Shown: piece after piece, positions 4,444 through 13,037 of the stretch
Numbering within the stretch: position 1 is the stretch's first letter
How the letters are laid out: each line of letters opens with the position of its first letter
IMG/VR virus record: IMGVR_UViG_3300038701_001565
Location: 1-21,975 of that record
Strand: one strand, 5' to 3'
DNA length: 21,975 nt
DNA from: a virus
Notes under the pieces: model-generated
Told to the model about the DNA's origin: nothing
Databases searched by the model: none
Seen by the model: only the letters and a program-made list of their open reading frames with translations
Made by a program: the position numbers and the translations under genes

Positions 4444-4667
4444 TGGTGGTACTCCCAAACGGTCTTGGCGTGTTCATAGTCAGCGCGGGCACGGCTAAAC
4501 CGAAGGCGCGCGGCGGTGCGTGCAAGGTCACAAACGTGCGCGGCCCCAAAGGCGTCGTGCGCAACGTCGCCCATTTCATTCATGGCAACCTCCATCCTGA
4601 TGCGGGCAACGGCGGGTTGGCCGATGTTGAATTGATCTTCCAACGTGGGAATAACGGCGTGTTTCAC
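4440..4667 (-). CDS. Hypothetical helical protein, GTG start, 75 aa
   Basis: The GTG at 4667 is taken as the start: it follows TTGGAGG at about nine bases and overlaps the previous stop as GTGA. A later ATG at 4595 has no ribosome site and would break the coupling. The 75-residue product has a middle helix rich in His and Ala (VAHDAFGAAHVCDLARTAAR) and an Arg-rich C-terminal helix ending WEYHQ. No family is recognised. It directly precedes erf in the coupled chain. Confidence 0.65.
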   Translation of the reverse strand: MKHAVIPTLEDQFNIGQPAVARIRMEVAMNEMGDVAHDAFGAAHVCDLARTAARLRFSRARADYEHAKTVWEYHQ

Positions 4668-4795
4668 TTAGCGGCCTCCAATTTCTCCAGCATCGCGCAC
4701 AGAAGCGCGTCACAGTAATGCATTGCGTGTTTAGTTGGGGTGCGAGGATCTGCCATAAGGCTTGCATAGTGGGCGGCACCGACAGGGCGGGTCAT
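4664..4795 (-). CDS. Hypothetical microprotein, 43 aa
   Basis: A 43-codon gene read leftward from 4795. It shares four bases with the gene before (ATGA) and ends in a GTGA overlap with the gene after, the same coupling used by all its neighbours; this is the main evidence that it is real. The ribosome site (CGGGGTGG) is weak, so translation probably relies on coupling. The product (MTRPVGAAHYASLMADPRTP, then a helix with two Cys, HYCDALLCAMLEKLEAAK) has no recognisable family. Confidence 0.55.
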   Translation of the reverse strand: MTRPVGAAHYASLMADPRTPTKHAMHYCDALLCAMLEKLEAAK

Positions 4796-4929
4796 TGCAG
4801 CCACCCCGCCGCGTCACGCATGGCGGAAAGAAGGACCTCAAGTTCAACAAAGCCCCAGATCGCGAGTGCAACGGCAATCCACGCCCAATAGTCGCGCTTG
4901 AACTCGCGCCATCCTTCACGGGAAATCAT
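4792..4929 (-). CDS. Single-span membrane microprotein, 45 aa
   Basis: Read leftward from the ATG at 4929, this 45-codon gene overlaps both neighbours by four bases (ATGA at each end) and is preceded by TGAGGCC. The product has a charged N-terminus (MISREGWREFKRD) followed by a hydrophobic, Trp-rich segment (YWAWIAVALAIWGFVELEVL). That segment is long enough for one membrane span with the N-terminus probably inside. A short tail ends AAGWLQ. Early-operon membrane microproteins of this kind can act in exclusion or host takeover, but nothing in the sequence shows a particular role. Confidence 0.6.
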   Translation of the reverse strand: MISREGWREFKRDYWAWIAVALAIWGFVELEVLLSAMRDAAGWLQ

Positions 4930-5153
4930 GTTGCGGCCTCATTGGGGACTGCAACATATCCCCAATCGTCCTCCCGATCGGCAGGCATGCGGGCTTTTTC
5001 AACTACCGCATATTCAATGCGCCGATGCCGCACCATGTTACCACAACACGTTGTGGCCGTTGTGGCCGCCCCTCCATAGGCCAAAACGTTGACCTCAGCA
5101 TGATGGTGCGCCAACTTCAACGCTTTACCGCAGTGGGGGCACTCTTCAATCAT
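4926..5153 (-). CDS. Zinc-ribbon-like protein, 75 aa
   Basis: The start at 5153 follows AAGGAGA, a good ribosome site, and overlaps the stop of the gene before. The N-terminus begins MIEECPHCGKALKLAHHHAE with a C-x2-C knuckle, and a second Cys pair follows at TTCCGNM. Two Cys pairs about 28 residues apart plus several His would give a zinc ribbon, as in small single-domain phage proteins whose first residues are a CPHCG knuckle. The C-terminal part (EYAVVEKARMPADREDDWGY) is acidic. Zinc ribbons of this size bind nucleic acid or protein; the target is unknown. It is the third gene of the leftward operon. Confidence 0.7.
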   Translation of the reverse strand: MIEECPHCGKALKLAHHHAEVNVLAYGGAATTATTCCGNMVRHRRIEYAVVEKARMPADREDDWGYVAVPNEAAT

Positions 5154-5356
5154 AGGAAATCTCCTTCTGCAAAGGTCACGGAATAGGTTCCGATCACGTT
5201 CTCCGCGAAGGCGTCGGCTGCATCGCTCATGGCCTCCTCGGTTTCATAACCGTTGCTGACGTAGGGCGTGCCGCCCCCGCCGTTGAACATGATGAACCAG
5301 CGCGTGATTTTGGCGGTGTCAGACGGGGCGGGAATAGCGGGCACGACACGCAACAT
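5150..5356 (-). CDS. Hypothetical protein, 68 aa
   Basis: Two start codons stand side by side, GTG at 5359 and ATG at 5356. The GGAGG ribosome site lies seven bases from the ATG but only four from the GTG, so the ATG (TGATG overlap with the previous stop) is preferred. The 68-residue product has an aromatic beta-type stretch (ITRWFIMFNGGGGTPYVSNG) and then an acidic helix and strand (ETEEAMSDAADAFAENVIGT). It resembles small single-domain phage proteins of alpha/beta type, but no family is recognised. Confidence 0.65.
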   Translation of the reverse strand: MLRVVPAIPAPSDTAKITRWFIMFNGGGGTPYVSNGYETEEAMSDAADAFAENVIGTYSVTFAEGDFL

Positions 5357-5742
5357 CACAGCACCTCCAACATTGCGCGTTCGTCGGCTTCATGCTGGTC
5401 CAGCGAGTACCCGTATTCGTCAGCTTCGCGCATGTAGTCCTGCGCTGCTTGGCTGGCGCGCACTGCGTCTTGCAGCATGTCGTGCAGGAAGTCAGAGAAG
5501 CTGTCGCCAAACTGGTTGGGGTAGATTTCCCCGTCTTGGATTTCAGCACCCCAGCCGAGAAGCTGGCGACAGATTTCCTCCATCACCGCGTCGTCGCTGC
5601 CGATCCCGGTGGCATCGTCAACGTGGGCGGCAAGTTCCAAAACGTCCTTCGCCAGTTGCTTTGCGTCGATGCACTGCAACACGCGGTCAATGCCGCTGTC
5701 GGTCTCGATGGTGGCGGTGTAGGTTTTGATGGGGGCGGTCAT
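5356..5742 (-). CDS. First gene of the leftward early operon, hypothetical acidic protein, 128 aa
   Basis: The ATG at 5742 follows ATAGGAGA at ideal spacing and lies 26 bases after the -10 element of the leftward promoter, so this is the promoter-proximal early gene. The 128-residue protein is strongly acidic. After an N-terminal beta segment (TAPIKTYTATIETDSG) come helices with many Asp/Glu, Gln and Met residues (QFGDSFSDFLHDMLQDAV, then YMREADEYGYSLDQHEADE). No family is recognised. Acidic, promoter-proximal early proteins of phages often mimic DNA to block host nucleases, but this is only an analogy. Confidence 0.75.
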   Translation of the reverse strand: MTAPIKTYTATIETDSGIDRVLQCIDAKQLAKDVLELAAHVDDATGIGSDDAVMEEICRQLLGWGAEIQDGEIYPNQFGDSFSDFLHDMLQDAVRASQAAQDYMREADEYGYSLDQHEADERAMLEVL

Positions 5743-5768
5743 GGCGTGTTCTCCTATCTGTTGAGGAG

Positions 5769-5797
5769 ACTATGGCAGGGACAAACGTCCCCGTCAA
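5769..5797 (-). promoter_or_regulatory. Leftward early promoter (pL-like)
   Basis: On the minus strand, TTGACG (5797-5792, five of six matches to TTGACA) is followed by a 17-base spacer and CATAGT (5774-5769, four of six matches to TATAAT). The spacer is almost wholly occupied by a palindromic operator (5778-5791). The first gene of the leftward operon starts 26 bases after the -10 element. This gives a strong sigma70-type promoter expected to be shut by the repressor, equivalent in place to lambda pL. Confidence 0.75.
5778..5791. promoter_or_regulatory. Operator OL1 inside the leftward promoter spacer
   Basis: A 14-bp palindrome GGGACAAACGTCCC whose five-base arms are perfect inverted repeats. 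It lies between the -35 and -10 elements of the leftward early promoter and shares its arms with three other sites (5807, 6385, 6409). The repressor at 6028-6348, or the Cro-like protein at 6434, is the likely ligand. This inference comes from position, not from binding data. Confidence 0.75.
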
Positions 5798-5806
5798 CAC
5801 AAAGAT

Positions 5807-5820
5807 AGGACTATTGTCCC
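5807..5820. promoter_or_regulatory. Operator OL2 upstream of the leftward promoter
   Basis: The 14-bp site AGGACTATTGTCCC has the arms of OL1 with one mismatch at the first base. It begins 29 bp from OL1, nearly three helical turns, which would allow two repressor dimers on one DNA face. It lies nine bases upstream of the -35 element of the leftward promoter. Confidence 0.65.
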
Positions 5821-6027
5821 CTCAATAGCGGAATCACTGTAGGGAAAGATTGCGCGCCGATCCTCTCCGGTATGTAGGGACAGCTATATGTAGGTGAAAT
5901 CATTCGCATCCAGCCACAGTATAGTGGCTTGATCTGACCGCAGTGTTCGCGGATTGTTCTTATTTAGAGAGGATTAATGGCTTGGAAAAAGAACTAGTCG
6001 AAGTTGAGGAAAGGCTAAGGCAAATCG
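5821..6027. other. Intergenic region between leftward operon and repressor gene
   Basis: I see no well-supported gene in this stretch. It holds a lone operator half-site (GGGAC at 5877-5881) and a short perfect inverted repeat: AGCCAC at 5912-5917, a six-base loop, GTGGCT at 5924-5929. The repeat could end the repressor transcript, but no U-run follows on either strand. A plus-strand frame opens with GTG at 5943 and runs antisense into the repressor gene (see findings). The AT content is higher than in the surrounding genes, as usual for a control region. Confidence 0.5.
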
Positions 6028-6348
6028 TTAACTTGCCTTTTGGTCCCCAGAGGCAAAGCCTCGTGCAGCAGCTAACAAAAGCGCCCGCTCTCCGTCACTT
6101 AGTCGGCTGTATAGATCAACAATCTCATTCCGATGGGCCTGCGTATCATCCCCGATGAACTCATCCAGGCTCATCCCAAAATGGTTGGCTATCAGAACGG
6201 CGTCGTCAACGTTGGTAGATCCCGTGTCGCGTTGCTTCAGCTTCTTTAGCTGCTCATAGGAAACACCCGTTTCTTTAGCAACGTGAGATAAGCTTTCACC
6301 CGTTGCATCCAAGGCGGACAATAACGCTGTTCTGAACTTCTGGCGCAT
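6028..6348 (-). CDS. CI-like phage repressor, short form without peptidase domain, 106 aa
   Basis: Residues about 1-55 are a Cro/CI-type helix-turn-helix domain (LLSALDATGESLSHVAKETG, then VSYEQLKKLKQRDTG, with the closing LIANHFGMSLDEFIGDD). A C-terminal helix (NEIVDLYSRLSDGERALLLA) probably mediates dimerisation. I chose the ATG at 6348 because the domain begins there; the longer open frame (to 6567) would read through both rightward operators and the divergent gene. No ribosome site precedes this ATG, while a TACAAT -10 element ends six bases before it, so the message may be leaderless. The protein lacks the LexA/S24 self-cleavage domain of lambda CI, so induction must use another route, such as an antirepressor. 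It probably binds the four GGGAC-N4-GTCCC operators. Confidence 0.8.
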   Translation of the reverse strand: MRQKFRTALLSALDATGESLSHVAKETGVSYEQLKKLKQRDTGSTNVDDAVLIANHFGMSLDEFIGDDTQAHRNEIVDLYSRLSDGERALLLAAARGFASGDQKAS

Positions 6349-6354
6349 GTCGAA

Positions 6355-6360
6355 ATTGTA
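6355..6360 (-). promoter_or_regulatory. Possible -10 element for the repressor gene
   Basis: On the minus strand, TACAAT (five of six matches to TATAAT) ends six bases before the repressor ATG, so transcription would start at or next to the first codon. No good -35 hexamer stands at 16-18 bases upstream. As with lambda pRM, activation by repressor bound at the nearby operators (6385-6422) could replace it. This is a sequence guess with no data behind it. Confidence 0.4.
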
Positions 6361-6384
6361 CGGCACGCGACGCAATGCCGTAAG

Positions 6385-6398
6385 GCGACGATTGTCCC
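6385..6398. promoter_or_regulatory. Operator OR2, upstream of the rightward promoter
   Basis: The 14-bp site GCGACGATTGTCCC matches the operator arms with one mismatch in the left arm and abuts the -35 hexamer of the rightward promoter. It begins 24 bp from OR1. It also lies 37 bases before the repressor start, where a bound repressor could touch polymerase at its own promoter. Confidence 0.7.
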
Positions 6399-6428
6399 TT
6401 GCTATGTCGGGACGATTGTCCCTATATT
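6399..6428 (+). promoter_or_regulatory. Rightward early promoter (pR-like)
   Basis: TTGCTA (6399-6404, four of six matches) and TATATT (6423-6428, five of six) are separated by 18 bases, 14 of which are operator OR1. The first ATG of the rightward operon begins five bases after the -10 element, so the transcript should start at, or within a base or two of, the initiation codon. The geometry mirrors the leftward promoter: one operator fills the spacer and one lies just upstream. Confidence 0.7.
6409..6422. promoter_or_regulatory. Operator OR1 inside the rightward promoter spacer
   Basis: The 14-bp site GGGACGATTGTCCC has perfect five-base inverted arms and ends directly against the -10 hexamer of the rightward promoter. 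Binding here would exclude polymerase. Its core (GATT) is identical to that of OR2, while the leftward operators have AAAC and TATT cores, so the four sites may differ in affinity. Confidence 0.75.
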
Positions 6429-6433
6429 GCGCC

Positions 6434-6727
6434 ATGACATCCGAACAACTCATATCAGACATCCGCAACTTCGCAGTTTTGCAAGGAATTGCCCCTGCGA
6501 CGGTCACGAGTCGGGCGGTCGGGAATAGCCGATTGTTCAGTAGGCTTGAGGCTGGCGGCAGTTGCACACTGGCAATCGCGCATAAGGTGCGGTGCTATAT
6601 CGATCAACATTCGTCTCCGTCTGCTTTGCCCGACGGAATTGCCTCGTCTGAAAACGTGGACACGGCAAAACCAGCTTTCAAGGGGAAATCGCAAAAGACC
6701 GTACCCCACGACCGGGGCGCAGCATGA
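6434..6727 (+). CDS. Cro-like small DNA-binding protein, 97 aa
   Basis: The first gene of the rightward operon. I take the ATG at 6434 because it stands where the promoter would start transcription; the frame is open back to 6347, but that would cross the promoter. Residues about 1-60 look like a divergent helix-turn-helix protein (LISDIRNFAVLQGIAPATVT, then SRAVGNSRLFSRLEAGG and CTLAIAHKVRCYIDQH). This pattern is common in small regulators of alphaproteobacterial prophages. The C-terminal 35 residues are polar and probably disordered. By position, divergent from the repressor with shared operators, it is the Cro or CII counterpart. No ribosome site precedes it, so the message is probably leaderless. 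It overlaps the next ORF as ATGA. Confidence 0.75.
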   Translation: MTSEQLISDIRNFAVLQGIAPATVTSRAVGNSRLFSRLEAGGSCTLAIAHKVRCYIDQHSSPSALPDGIASSENVDTAKPAFKGKSQKTVPHDRGAA

Positions 6728-7074
6728 CTTGTGCCCCTTCCCAGATCTGCGAAGGCGTGCCTCTCCACGCCCGCCGCAGCGCGCGGCCCGCCCCCTCCCA
6801 GAACGTGGGCCGCGCAACTTACACGAGTGCCCCTCTCGCTTGGAGGCGAGTGTTACCGTCTCTCGCTTGCAGGCGAGTGTTACCGCCTCATAATTGTGCT
6901 GCGGGAGGCGGGGGCACTTCGTCCGCAGCACACACTTATTCCCATGCGGAGTGCGCCCGCGACCGCGCACAGTCCTACCTCCTTGGCAAGGGCGGCACTG
7001 TCATGGATGCCGCCCCAACTCACCCGCTGGCGTCTAACGGCGTCGGCGGGGCTTTTCCGGGGGTGTCGGAATGA
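6724..7074 (+). CDS. Uncertain protein, 116 aa, with internal 9-residue repeat
   Basis: This frame is favoured among several open ones here because it has four-base ATGA overlaps at both ends, with the Cro-like gene before and the 44-residue gene after. The protein is unusual: Arg/Pro/Ala-rich in its first 60 residues, with two 9-residue repeats (LAWRRVLPS and LACRRVLPP) from a 27-bp tandem DNA repeat. The C-terminal part looks more ordinary (CARDRAQSYLLGKGGTVMDA). The ribosome site is poor (GGGGCG). Part of the stretch could instead be an untranslated regulatory element like lambda nutR/tR1, which lies just after cro, with only a short downstream gene (for example from 7003) being real. No family is recognised. 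Confidence 0.4.
   Translation: MTCAPSQICEGVPLHARRSARPAPSQNVGRATYTSAPLAWRRVLPSLACRRVLPPHNCAAGGGGTSSAAHTYSHAECARDRAQSYLLGKGGTVMDAAPTHPLASNGVGGAFPGVSE
6835..6888 (+). repeat. Two tandem 27-bp hairpin-forming repeats
   Basis: Units at 6835-6861 and 6862-6888 differ at only two positions. Each begins with a self-complementary stretch, CTCGC-TTGGAG-GCGAG in the first and CTCGC-TTGCAG-GCGAG in the second. As RNA each would form a five-base-pair stem with a six-base loop, followed by a conserved TGTTACCG single-stranded stretch. They lie about 400 bases after the rightward promoter, within an uncertain ORF. Position and form recall antitermination (nut/put) elements, but the 27-bp period also fits a coding repeat. 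Confidence 0.7.
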
Positions 7075-7205
7075 CTGACCAAGAAAAAGTCATCACCTAC
7101 CTGCGTTCCATAGCCCGCGACCAAAGCCTCGCCCGTGCGCAGAAGACGGCACGTTGTGCGCTGCGCATTCTTGGCGTGGATCTGAGCAAGGAGAGTGGCC
7201 AATGA
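7071..7205 (+). CDS. Hypothetical microprotein, 44 aa
   Basis: A 44-codon gene with ATGA overlaps at both ends. The product (MTDQEKVITYLRSIARDQSL, then an Ala/Arg helix ARAQKTARCALRILGVDLSK) is probably two helices and has no recognised family. The stretch before the ATG (GGGGGTGTCGGA) gives a modest ribosome site, and coupling to the previous frame may help. Confidence 0.6.
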   Translation: MTDQEKVITYLRSIARDQSLARAQKTARCALRILGVDLSKESGQ

Positions 7206-7411
7206 CCCCCAACGAAACACTGCGCGTATGCATTGAAGACGCCGCCGCCGCCCGAGAGGTAGAGCGCGCGCAACGCAGCATGGACACTCGGCGCATCGCC
7301 CGCGCCATAGAGCGCCGGAAAGCCACCACACACGCCCTCATTGCCTTGCAGCTACGTCAGGGCCGGAAGGAACGCGAGAACGCCAGGGCAATGGGGTGGG
7401 CGGCGGAGTGA
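7202..7411 (+). CDS. Hypothetical Arg/Ala-rich helical protein, 69 aa
   Basis: The ATG at 7202 follows AAGGAGAG at good spacing and overlaps the stop before it; the in-frame ATG at 7154 lies inside the previous gene. The product is basic and helical throughout (EDAAAAREVERAQRSMDTRR, then IARAIERRKATTHALIALQL). This suggests contact with nucleic acid or another protein, but no family is recognised. It directly precedes the RusA-type resolvase and overlaps it as GTGA. Confidence 0.65.
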   Translation: MTPNETLRVCIEDAAAAREVERAQRSMDTRRIARAIERRKATTHALIALQLRQGRKERENARAMGWAAE

Positions 7412-7785
7412 GTGTCTACGTTCGTGAAATCACGCTTCCATGGCCAAGCACTGACCTAACCCCTCACGCCAAGGGGGGCTGGAAGAAGAAGGCCCGCGCA
7501 ACCAAAGATGCCCGCAATATGGCGTGGTCCGTGGCGATGGAAAAGCCGCGCGTTGAGTGCATTCCTGACGCCGTGATTTTCGTTGAGTATTGGCCCAAGG
7601 CCCGCCGTGGCGACGTGCATAACATGCATGGCCGCATGAAGGCCTACATCGATGGAATCGCCGACGCTATGGGGTGCGACGACAAGGCCTTCCAGGTTGA
7701 TTTTCCGACTGTCTGGGCAGGAACATCACCGCAGGGAAAGGTTGTGTTTCGCGTGGTTCGCCCGGTTGGGAAGGATGCCGCATGA
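7408..7785 (+). CDS. rusA: RusA-family Holliday junction resolvase, 125 aa
   Basis: The product begins with the typical RusA strand (YVREITLPWPS) and has the signature RRGDVHNMHGRMKAYIDGIA, then DAMGCDDK. Its conserved acids (Asp about 69, 82 and 91) correspond to the metal-binding Asp residues of E. coli RusA, a dimeric endonuclease that cuts four-way junctions. I prefer the GTG at 7408, which overlaps the previous stop as GTGA; the GTG at 7396 is also possible and adds four residues. In a phage that replicates by recombination and packages concatemers, the enzyme would remove branches before packaging. It belongs functionally with ERF and NinB on the left and SSB downstream. Confidence 0.88.
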   Translation: MSVYVREITLPWPSTDLTPHAKGGWKKKARATKDARNMAWSVAMEKPRVECIPDAVIFVEYWPKARRGDVHNMHGRMKAYIDGIADAMGCDDKAFQVDFPTVWAGTSPQGKVVFRVVRPVGKDAA

Positions 7786-7910
7786 GAGCGCAAAACCCCT
7801 TGGAAATCAACGCGCAATGCGGTAGAAATGATCAGGCCGAGAAGCTGTTGACGCAGCGACCCGGCCCTAACCAGAGCGACCCTGTCGAAGGAGGATCGAG
7901 CAATGGCTGA
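7782..7910 (+). CDS. Hypothetical microprotein, 42 aa
   Basis: A 42-codon gene starting in an ATGA overlap with the RusA gene and ending eight bases into the next gene. No strong ribosome site precedes it, so it would depend on coupling. The product (MRAQNPLEINAQCGRNDQAE, then KLLTQRPGPNQSDPVEGGSS) is polar and lacks obvious structure. Its last codons also contain the strong ribosome site (GAAGGAGGA) of the next gene, so the stretch could be mostly a translated spacer. No family is recognised. Confidence 0.45.
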   Translation: MRAQNPLEINAQCGRNDQAEKLLTQRPGPNQSDPVEGGSSNG

Positions 7911-8043
7911 TTTCAGTCAATATGGCGAGTCTACGCCTGTTATCAAGACCAATCAAGAACAACCCGATACATGGCAGCCTATTGGCGCGCTTGTCGCGGC
8001 TGATGTGGAGCGCATCCGCGCCGCTATGGGTGAGCGCAAATGA
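7903..8043 (+). CDS. Hypothetical microprotein upstream of the helicase, 46 aa
   Basis: A strong ribosome site (AAGGAGGA, about eight bases before the ATG) and an ATGA overlap with the helicase gene mark this as a real 46-codon gene. The product has a polar N-terminus (MADFSQYGESTPVIKTNQEQ) and an amphipathic C-terminal helix (LVAADVERIRAAMGERK). No family is recognised. Its tight linkage to the helicase could mean a loader or partner, but the sequence gives no proof. Confidence 0.6.
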   Translation: MADFSQYGESTPVIKTNQEQPDTWQPIGALVAADVERIRAAMGERK

Positions 8044-9434
8044 ACGCCCACGCCCCCATTTTCAACCCAGAGGCAGAGCAGGCCATTCTGGGGGCTTTCT
8101 TGTACTCTACCGCCAACCTTGACCGGGTGGCGCACCTCATTCGCAAGGAACACTTTGCGGACCCGGTGCATGGCGAGATTTTCCGCGTGATCGAGTCGCG
8201 CTATCGCAACGGCCATGTGTCTGACGCGGTGGCGGTTGCCGTTCACATGCAGGACCACGAGGGGCTGAAACAGCTTGGCGGTAAGGAATACATCGTCAAG
8301 CTGAACCTTGCGGCCCCCCCTTCCACGCTGGTGGAGGGGTACGTTGACCTTCTACGCGAATTGAAGGCCAAGCGCGACATTTCCGAGGCTATCGCAGAGG
8401 CGCAAGCAGGCCTGACGGACAGTGACGTGCCAGCGCAAGAGGTGGCAGGACGCCTAGAGGCCGCGCTGATGGGCCGTGAGGAGGGCAACAAGCCGCCGCT
8501 GGTGTCTATGCGGTCCGCAGCCCTTAACGCGGCGCAGGAAGCCGCCGATGCGCGAGACCGTGACGGCTACGCGGGTGCCTCTACAGGCATTGGCGGTCTG
8601 GATGCGATGATGGGCGGACTATTCCCCGGCGATCTGGTGATTATTGGCGGGCGTCCAAGCATGGGCAAAACCGCCGTTGCCTTGTCAATCGCATTGGGGC
8701 AGGCGCGGGCTGGTGGCGGTGTCGCTATCGCCTCTCTGGAAATGACCGCAAGCAGCTTGGCCACGCGGGCGGCGTCTGAGGCGTCAGCACAATCCGGGCA
8801 TGGCGTTGCCTATTCGGATATCCGCAAGGGTGTCGCAACCGTGGCGCAGGTGGACACGTTTATCAATTCCGCGCAACAGGTGGCAGAACTTCCAATGATG
8901 ATTATTCCGCCTTACGTGCGTGACATCGGGGCGCTCTATTCAGCAGCCAAGCGGGCCAAGTCGATGTTCGACGGTCGCGGGATCGGGCTAAAGGCGTTGG
9001 TCGTCGATTACCTGCAACTTATCCGTTCCTCCAAGCAAAGCCGCATTGATCAAATCAGCGAAATCAGCATGGCCCTAAAGGGGCTGGCGATGCAGTTGGA
9101 AGTTCCTGTTATTGCCCTTTCTCAGCTTTCCCGTGCCGTTGAGAGCCGTGAAGACAAGCGCCCGGTTATGTCGGACCTGCGCGAGAGTGGCCAGATTGAG
9201 CAAGACGCCGATGCGATACTGTTTTGTTACCGGGATGAATACTACGCGATCCGCGAGGAACCGAAGCTAGGCGACCGCGACGAGAAGCACGAGGAATGGG
9301 TGCGGCGCATGGACGCTTGCCGCAACCGCCTGGAAATTATCGTGGCCAAGCAGCGCATGGGCGAAGTTGGCACGGTCAACGTGGGCTTCAACCCGGCGTT
9401 CAACCTCGTTTGGGACGCGGAGGCGCGCAGATGA
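8040..9434 (+). CDS. dnaB: Replicative DNA helicase, DnaB family, 464 aa
   Basis: Full-length DnaB-type helicase. The N-terminal DnaB domain (about residues 8-105: FNPEAEQAILGAFLYS, then HFADPVHGEIFRVIESRY) is followed by a linker and a RecA-like motor. The motor has Walker A GGRPSMGKT at about 203-211, the SLEM block near 232, Walker B VVDYLQL at about 321-327, the sensor/Q-loop region PVIALSQLSRAVESR, and DLRESGQIEQDADAILF. The 464 residues are close to bacterial DnaB length. It would form a hexameric ring unwinding DNA 5' to 3' at the fork. The initiator gene follows with an ATGA overlap, so the two form a replication pair like lambda O/P or P22 18/12 (P22 gp12 is itself DnaB-like). No helicase-loader gene is recognised. 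Confidence 0.95.
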   Translation: MNAHAPIFNPEAEQAILGAFLYSTANLDRVAHLIRKEHFADPVHGEIFRVIESRYRNGHVSDAVAVAVHMQDHEGLKQLGGKEYIVKLNLAAPPSTLVEGYVDLLRELKAKRDISEAIAEAQAGLTDSDVPAQEVAGRLEAALMGREEGNKPPLVSMRSAALNAAQEAADARDRDGYAGASTGIGGLDAMMGGLFPGDLVIIGGRPSMGKTAVALSIALGQARAGGGVAIASLEMTASSLATRAASEASAQSGHGVAYSDIRKGVATVAQVDTFINSAQQVAELPMMIIPPYVRDIGALYSAAKRAKSMFDGRGIGLKALVVDYLQLIRSSKQSRIDQISEISMALKGLAMQLEVPVIALSQLSRAVESREDKRPVMSDLRESGQIEQDADAILFCYRDEYYAIREEPKLGDRDEKHEEWVRRMDACRNRLEIIVAKQRMGEVGTVNVGFNPAFNLVWDAEARR

Positions 9435-12521: not shown

Positions 12522-13037
12522 ATGACGACTTATCTACTCTATGCCAAGGCGGGCAAGGAAATGCAGGTCGCGGACGACTTGCGGCTTCTTGGCATCGACA
12601 CATGGTGCGGACGTGTCATTCATTGGGAGCGCCGTGGCAAAAAGCGCCAAGCGGAGCCGCGCGAAGAGCCCATGCTGCCCAACTACATCTTTGCGGAAAT
12701 GGCCCCCTATGACTACCACCGCGCAATGGGGGTCAAGCACCTCCACCCAACAGCAACAGTTATTGGGCACAAGGAATCACTGATCGTGCGAAAGTTCCAG
12801 AACGATGTGGACGCCGCCTATCAAGAGCAGGCCGCAATCCGCGCCAAGGCCGACACCCCACTGCCTGAGTATGACCCACAAGCGCCGTTGCGGATTATTT
12901 CGGGGCCATTCGCTGACAAGCTGGTGAAATTCCGCAGGCTTGTTGACGCGCATGATCCACTTGCCGTGCGCATTGAAGCAGATGGGCCAATGGGCGTGAT
13001 GAAGCTAGACCCGCTGGACGTGAGGGCGGCTGAATGA
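12522..13037 (+). CDS. NusG-like transcription elongation factor (candidate late antiterminator), 171 aa
   Basis: A NusG/RfaH-type protein. The NGN domain at about residues 1-90 starts with MTTYLLYAKAGKEMQVADDL and has the typical EEPMLPNYIFAEM block. A linker follows, then a KOW domain at about 121-166 (LRIISGPFADKLVKFRRLVD, ending GVMKLDPLDVR). It is close to the 181 residues of bacterial NusG. NusG paralogues bind the clamp of RNA polymerase and suppress pausing, and RfaH and LoaP do so as operon-specific antiterminators. Here the gene is the last of the early operon and is followed within ten bases by a strong promoter and long leader, the place of Q in lambda or gene 23 in P22. I infer that it licenses late transcription. 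No Q-type gene is seen. The ribosome site is AAAAGGGG. Confidence 0.85.
   Translation: MTTYLLYAKAGKEMQVADDLRLLGIDTWCGRVIHWERRGKKRQAEPREEPMLPNYIFAEMAPYDYHRAMGVKHLHPTATVIGHKESLIVRKFQNDVDAAYQEQAAIRAKADTPLPEYDPQAPLRIISGPFADKLVKFRRLVDAHDPLAVRIEADGPMGVMKLDPLDVRAAE

Follow-up and report, generated by a model that had tools for sequence, protein, structure and literature searches.

Evidence for a lambda-like, two-sided phage immunity region controlled by a short repressor and four operators

A repressor gene between two pairs of operator-like sites

The window analysed here, the whole 21,975-bp record, contains two pairs of short inverted repeats placed at two divergent promoter-like sites, with a single gene, that of the predicted repressor P0001, between the pairs. 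The features of this region, as predicted from the sequence, are the following.

5356..5742, minus strand: first leftward early gene, 128 aa, no assigned function
5769..5797, minus strand: promoter-like hexamers of PL, TTGACG (5797-5792), 17 bp, CATAGT (5774-5769)
5778..5791: OL proximal operator, GGGACAAACGTCCC, perfect GGGAC-N4-GTCCC, in the PL spacer, directly against the -35
5807..5820: OL distal operator, AGGACTATTGTCCC, one mismatch, 29 bp centre to centre from OL proximal
6028..6348, minus strand: repressor P0001, 106 aa, Cro/C1-type HTH, recognition helix at about 31-39, short helical tail
6355..6360, minus strand: -10 of the repressor promoter (PRM-like), TACAAT, 6 nt ahead of the ATG
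6385..6398: OR distal operator (OR2-like), GCGACGATTGTCCC, one mismatch, abutting the PR -35
6399..6428, plus strand: promoter-like hexamers of PR, TTGCTA (6399-6404), 18 bp, TATATT (6423-6428)
6409..6422: OR proximal operator (OR1-like), GGGACGATTGTCCC, perfect, in the PR spacer, directly against the -10; spaced by 24 bp from OR distal
6434..6727, plus strand: Cro-like gene P0002, 97 aa, four helices within residues 3-59

Leftward, the 128-aa gene is followed by Erf, exonuclease-like, NinB and YbcO-like genes. Rightward, the Cro-like P0002 is accompanied by RusA-like, DnaB helicase, O-like, SSB and NusG-like antiterminator genes and by those for terminase, a P22-like portal and capsid. This gene order is the one expected of a lambda/P22-type early region. 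The NusG/RfaH-like protein (12522-13037, plus strand; Pfam NusG; PHROG transcription antiterminator), encoded ahead of the packaging genes, is a candidate late-gene antiterminator replacing lambda Q. Downstream of the Cro-like gene, at 6838-6890, the sequence CTCGCTTG(G/C)AGGCGAGTGTTACCG occurs twice at a distance of 27 bp, with a 5-bp stem in each copy; the position of these hairpins is nut-like, but they were not seen in the four relatives inspected, and we set aside the idea that they are nut-like elements. Near the start of the record, the plus strand carries the catalytic part of an integrase (Pfam Phage_integrase, aa 199-258 of ORF 1212-2015), and the beginning of a minus-strand ORF (1709-1077), itself free of any family match, resembles by eye an integrase N-terminus. 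The tyrosine integrase (1077-2015) thus looks broken or rearranged in this record and, since it does not look intact, the temperate state of the phage is one that we infer.

Operator sites and early promoters

An earlier note on this DNA had listed four 14-bp GGGAC-N4-GTCCC sites in two pairs, one pair on each early promoter. The coordinates and the pairing stand (scan and coordinates place the OL pair at PL and the OR pair at PR), whereas the exact consensus holds for 5778 and 6409 and is missed by one letter each at 5807 and 6385. Nor does the motif occur at random elsewhere: over the 21,975-bp record a scan allowing up to one mismatch returns four matches only, and these are the four operators. 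With up to two mismatches allowed, the motif falls to chance level in the window (10 found against 11.5 expected). The distance from OL to OR is 631 bp.

PR and PL are the only two promoter-like sites recovered by a consensus scan of 4500-7800, a count near shuffle level (1.2 expected). One site of each pair does lie in a -35/-10 spacer, as had been proposed, but without filling it exactly: of the 18 spacer positions at PR it takes up 14, and of the 17 at PL likewise 14. The arrangement is also less symmetrical than had been supposed: the pairs are spaced by 24 bp at OR and 29 bp at OL, and the promoter register differs, the spacer site being flush with the -10 at PR and with the -35 at PL. 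Both registers are kept in relatives, as is the TTGAC that abuts the proximal OL site.

Recurrence of the layout in related phages and prophages

A repressor search yielded a first relative at 52% identity, a prophage of Palleronia caenipelagi (L003/L004). Its anatomy is that of the window in diverged letters, with the OR sites spaced by 24 bp and the OL sites by 29 bp, a PR -35 abutting the distal OR site and a PL -35 abutting the proximal OL site. When IMG/VR viral contigs were scanned blindly for a loose OR pattern, six hits were returned, representing about four distinct phages. All six are OR regions adjoining a related repressor; the OL pair is present wherever the fetched stretch extends that far. 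Further loci were gathered through repressor profiles from phage contigs and Rhodobacteraceae genomes, and a single detection procedure was applied to all (best-scoring pair, -35-like hexamer rewarded, spacings limited to those reported). Among 49 loci encoding a related repressor, 47 have an OR pair, 24-26 bp apart, in the interval that separates the repressor from a divergent Cro-like gene. After removal of DNA-binding domains more than 85% identical, 37 non-redundant loci remain, in which the OR spacing is 24 bp (23 loci), 25 bp (13) or 26 bp (1). In 32 of these an OL pair lies beyond the repressor, 0.6-3.3 kb away, spaced by 28 bp (16 loci) or 29 bp (16), and all 37 have a P0002 homologue at the same place, divergent from the repressor. 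Among 300 random places used as a control, 45 pass the OR score, mostly at threshold, and only five also pass the OL score, three of which turned out to be true OR sites met by accident. An earlier pass with wider spacing limits had the same outcome. By sequence, the layout is shared by 36 or more relatives, phages as well as prophages; the operator pair is not clearly seen at L034, L036 and L075, which are distant or partial.

Two of the loci show particularities of their own. L040, a distant relative, has GTGCC-N4-GGCAC operators in a four-site layout upstream and downstream of 1501, with spacings of 26 and 29 bp. In L018 extra genes are found between the repressor and OL (6892-8625), and two neighbours among them (7573-7842 and 7839-8231) resemble by eye a HicA/HicB toxin-antitoxin pair; the position of this cargo can be likened to that of lambda rex.

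This recurrence bears on whether the repeats are operators at all. As chance inverted repeats, or as terminator hairpins near promoters, they could in part be understood, given that 5807-5820 scores terminator-like on the minus strand. However, the region contains no more terminator-like hits than shuffled sequence does (4 found, 4.0 expected), the geometry of the pairs is kept over dozens of diverged loci, and of 400 dinucleotide shuffles of the sequence two contained at least four sites with up to one mismatch and none contained a tandem pair. We therefore give such an origin hardly any credence.

The nearest identifiable relatives of the repressor reside in Rhodobacteraceae genomes and in phage contigs. 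Searching P0001 against the phages collection gave only two half matches at 42% identity and blastn of the immunity region gave no match, which leaves this immunity without a named phage among those searched. A distant XRE gene, at about 30% identity, is present in Sulfitobacter phage NYA-2014a. A class-wide genome search at E 1e-15 returned nothing beyond the Palleronia genome. In the literature searched, which took in few subscription papers, there is neither a report of a GGGAC-N4-GTCCC operator nor any defined phage operator for Rhodobacteraceae.

The repressor, its promoter and the Cro-like protein

P0001 matches a PHROG transcriptional regulator profile (E 1e-6), with Pfam HTH_3 and HTH_26 below the cut-off, and its 106 aa contain no Pfam match to an S24 peptidase domain. 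Its AlphaFold2 model is all helical (pLDDT 86), with helices 20-27 and 31-39 predicted to form the HTH. The modelled HTH aligns with XRE domains with a TM by target of up to 0.83, but with E values of 0.003 or worse, and a sequence search for solved relatives returned designed repeat proteins and unrelated chains only. The model of P0002 is likewise HTH-like, its fold match being weak (best E 0.64).

In 25 of the 37 non-redundant loci a -10 of the form TANNNT precedes the repressor start by 11-14 nt, against a background of 1.7%, and a search for a Shine-Dalgarno-like 5-mer found none. With the -10 so near the start codon and such a 5-mer missing, the repressor mRNA is probably leaderless, as is that from lambda PRM. 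A similar condition is predicted for the Cro-like mRNA: in the window the ATG lies 5 nt past the PR -10. The distance from OR1 to the Cro-like start codon, read by eye, is about 10-14 nt, for which reason we regard this transcript as near-leaderless. By inspection the -35 of the repressor promoter is poor, as would be expected under activation or if the promoter were miscalled. From the presumed start of the leaderless repressor mRNA, the centre of the distal OR site lies 43.5 bp upstream, and this closeness to the place of lambda OR2 at PRM makes it likely that the repressor, when bound there, activates its own gene. Over the repressor promoter itself (6361-6382), an inverted repeat ACGGCA-N10-TGCCGT was considered as the site of a second regulator and discarded, not being conserved in relatives.

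Covariation of repressor and operators

The operator arms vary by clade, and include GGGAC, GGGAC/T (GGGAY), GGGTA, GGGGA, GGGAA, TGGAC and GTGCC. In 325 comparisons between repressor residues and operator positions, the two highest scores (z 14 and 12) belong to residue 36, paired with operator positions 4 and 5 respectively; residue 35 paired with position 1 comes next. Both residues fall within the modelled recognition helix, and residue 40 falls just past it. Loci with R40 have C at position 5 in every half-site (12 of 12), as against none of the 25 loci that lack this arginine; the window has R40 and C at position 5 throughout, whereas its nearest relative, L060, has G40 and a mixture of C and T. 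On the repressor tree the R40 trait and the position-5 trait change seven times each, and of the independent pairs on well-supported branches there are only three, all in agreement (sign test p 0.25). The covariation is thus partly phylogenetic, which weakens the statistics, while the pattern at residue 40 is without exceptions.

Because operator letters covary with residues 35 and 36 and with R40, P0001 is almost certainly the reader of the operators, and the same covariation supports one protein acting at all sites and both promoters. The central 4 bp of the operator, A/T in 97% over 138 sites, suggest by analogy with phage 434 an indirect readout of the centre. Two other readers were considered. 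The sites might be operators read mainly by the Cro-like P0002, with the repressor reading something else: the Cro-like gene is present at every one of the 37 loci, and the region presumed to serve its protein for recognition is altered as well in the GGGTA, GGGGA and GGGAA clades. Yet the operator letters covary specifically with repressor residues 35, 36 and 40, and it is at repressor residue 40 and operator position 5 that the window and L060 jointly differ, so that we regard this possibility as very unlikely. The sites could also belong to a host regulator borrowed by the phage, in the manner of the host or host-like LexA that serves some phages; a fixed host protein, however, would not account for operators that differ from clade to clade in step with the repressor that the phage itself encodes, and the probability of such borrowing is close to nil.

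An imperfect OR site, and a third operator in relatives

The mismatch of the distal OR site, at 6386 in the window, falls on base 2 of the half-site nearer to the repressor promoter. The same base deviates in 29 of the 37 loci, while the other half-site positions 1-4 of the OR pair deviate in at most five loci each, and the OR2-like imperfection is therefore a conserved feature.

An OR3-like third site near the repressor start is found in 17 of the 37 loci, comprising 11 of 15 with a long repressor and 6 of 22 with a short one; in one long relative, L080, an S24 peptidase domain is matched. The window has no such site near the repressor start, the best candidate agreeing at 6 of 10 letters. 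The two-plus-two arrangement might accordingly be a reduced lambda set from which the third OR site has been lost, with no self-shutoff of the repressor at high dose. The distribution of the third site and its absence from the window point this way; against it, the ancestral state is not established, and a link of third-site loss with repressor length or S24 loss had to be given up, not being independent of phylogeny on the tree. We put this forward tentatively, as somewhat less than an even chance, and as a refinement of the explanation proposed below instead of an alternative to it.

Proposed control of the lysis-lysogeny decision

Taking together the observed sites, gene neighbourhood, conservation and repressor-operator covariation, we consider it very probable that the window holds the immunity (lysis-lysogeny) region of a temperate phage of the P22-portal type, controlled by the 106-aa repressor through four operators. 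A dimer of this protein would bind the 14-bp sites through their GGGAC arms and AT-rich centre, covering the spacer and -10 (6409) and the -35 edge (6385) at PR, and the spacer (5778) and the upstream site (5807) at PL. So bound, it would shut off the rightward operon (Cro-like, RusA-like, O-like, DnaB, SSB and NusG-like antiterminator) and the leftward operon (Erf, NinB and YbcO-like). The distal OR site, presumably weakened at its one conserved base on the side of the repressor promoter, probably serves to activate the repressor gene, its position being almost that of lambda OR2 relative to PRM, and the Cro-like protein is probably a competitor of the repressor for the operators; looping of OL to OR, if any, would be conjectural.

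The operator specificity, the unnamed family of mini-repressor and Cro-like proteins and the natural series of co-evolved operators are all new. We further propose, with the balance evenly poised, that they represent an unnamed and widespread immunity family of Rhodobacteraceae phages, possibly extending to other hosts, in which a scaffold (OR of 24-25 bp, OL of 28-29 bp, near-leaderless repressor and Cro-like mRNAs, and the broken OR2-like base) is kept while operator specificity shifts with few repressor residues. If so, the OR2 lesion would have a function, such as balancing activation against the preference of Cro. Dozens of natural repressor/operator pairs are available on one conserved scaffold, and from them one could predict, for Rhodobacteraceae, the immunity groups that decide against which phages a given prophage protects. 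The OR2-like defect and the short S24-less repressors, often without a third site, could also serve as tests of what a minimal working lambda-type switch needs.

Comparison with known systems

In lambda, control is two-sided, with sites that overlap PR and PL and an OR spacing of about 24 bp; OR2 lies about 43 bp upstream of the start of the repressor gene, whose mRNA is leaderless. The window agrees in these respects, with a repressor mRNA that is probably leaderless, a repressor gene flanked by two operator regions which overlap two divergent early promoters, and a divergent Cro-like gene that opens the rightward operon. A lambda-like two-sided immunity control is strongly supported by the recurrence of the layout in relatives. 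The differences are nonetheless considerable: the sites of lambda are of 17 bp instead of 14 and of different sequence, three per side where the window has two, its repressor includes an S24 domain, and OL and OR are about 2.4 kb apart instead of 0.6 kb. The earlier equation with the OL/OR logic of lambda in an unrelated sequence thus survives as regards two-sided control and an operator sequence of its own, both upheld by the gene setting and by the conserved layout and repressor/operator pairing, and fails as regards symmetry. Phage 434 has a 14-bp operator whose outer arms are read directly and whose centre favours AT. These traits are paralleled in the window, and residues 1-69 of the 434 repressor (1pra) are among the HTH domains aligning with the P0001 model (E 0.05); the arm sequence is unrelated, however, and no homology is established by sequence.

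The closest parallel in layout is provided by Rhizobium phage 16-3, in which OL1, OL2, OR1 and OR2 are annotated (NC_011103; PMC12429752). Two sites per promoter, which the earlier note had set against the arrangement of lambda, are consequently known already. In phage 16-3, too, the repressor gene stands between two divergent early promoters that have two operators apiece. An OL site falls within the PL spacer, an OR site sits just ahead of the Pr -35 and adjoins the -35 of the repressor promoter, and, like the relatives of the window, the phage belongs to an alphaproteobacterial host group. In contrast, its operators read ACAA-N4-TTGT (OL) and ACAA-N6-TTG(A/T) (OR), with OL sites 17 bp and OR sites 26 bp apart, and its C repressor is of 264 aa, with a C-terminal half that is S24-like by eye, against 106 aa in the window. 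Compared with the DNA-binding profile of the window's repressor family, this C repressor scores 10 bits over 40 residues only, too little by the criterion applied for it to count as a homologue. The region described here would therefore work like those of lambda and 16-3 while being by sequence a member of neither, and by the measure of lambda it represents a reduced form.
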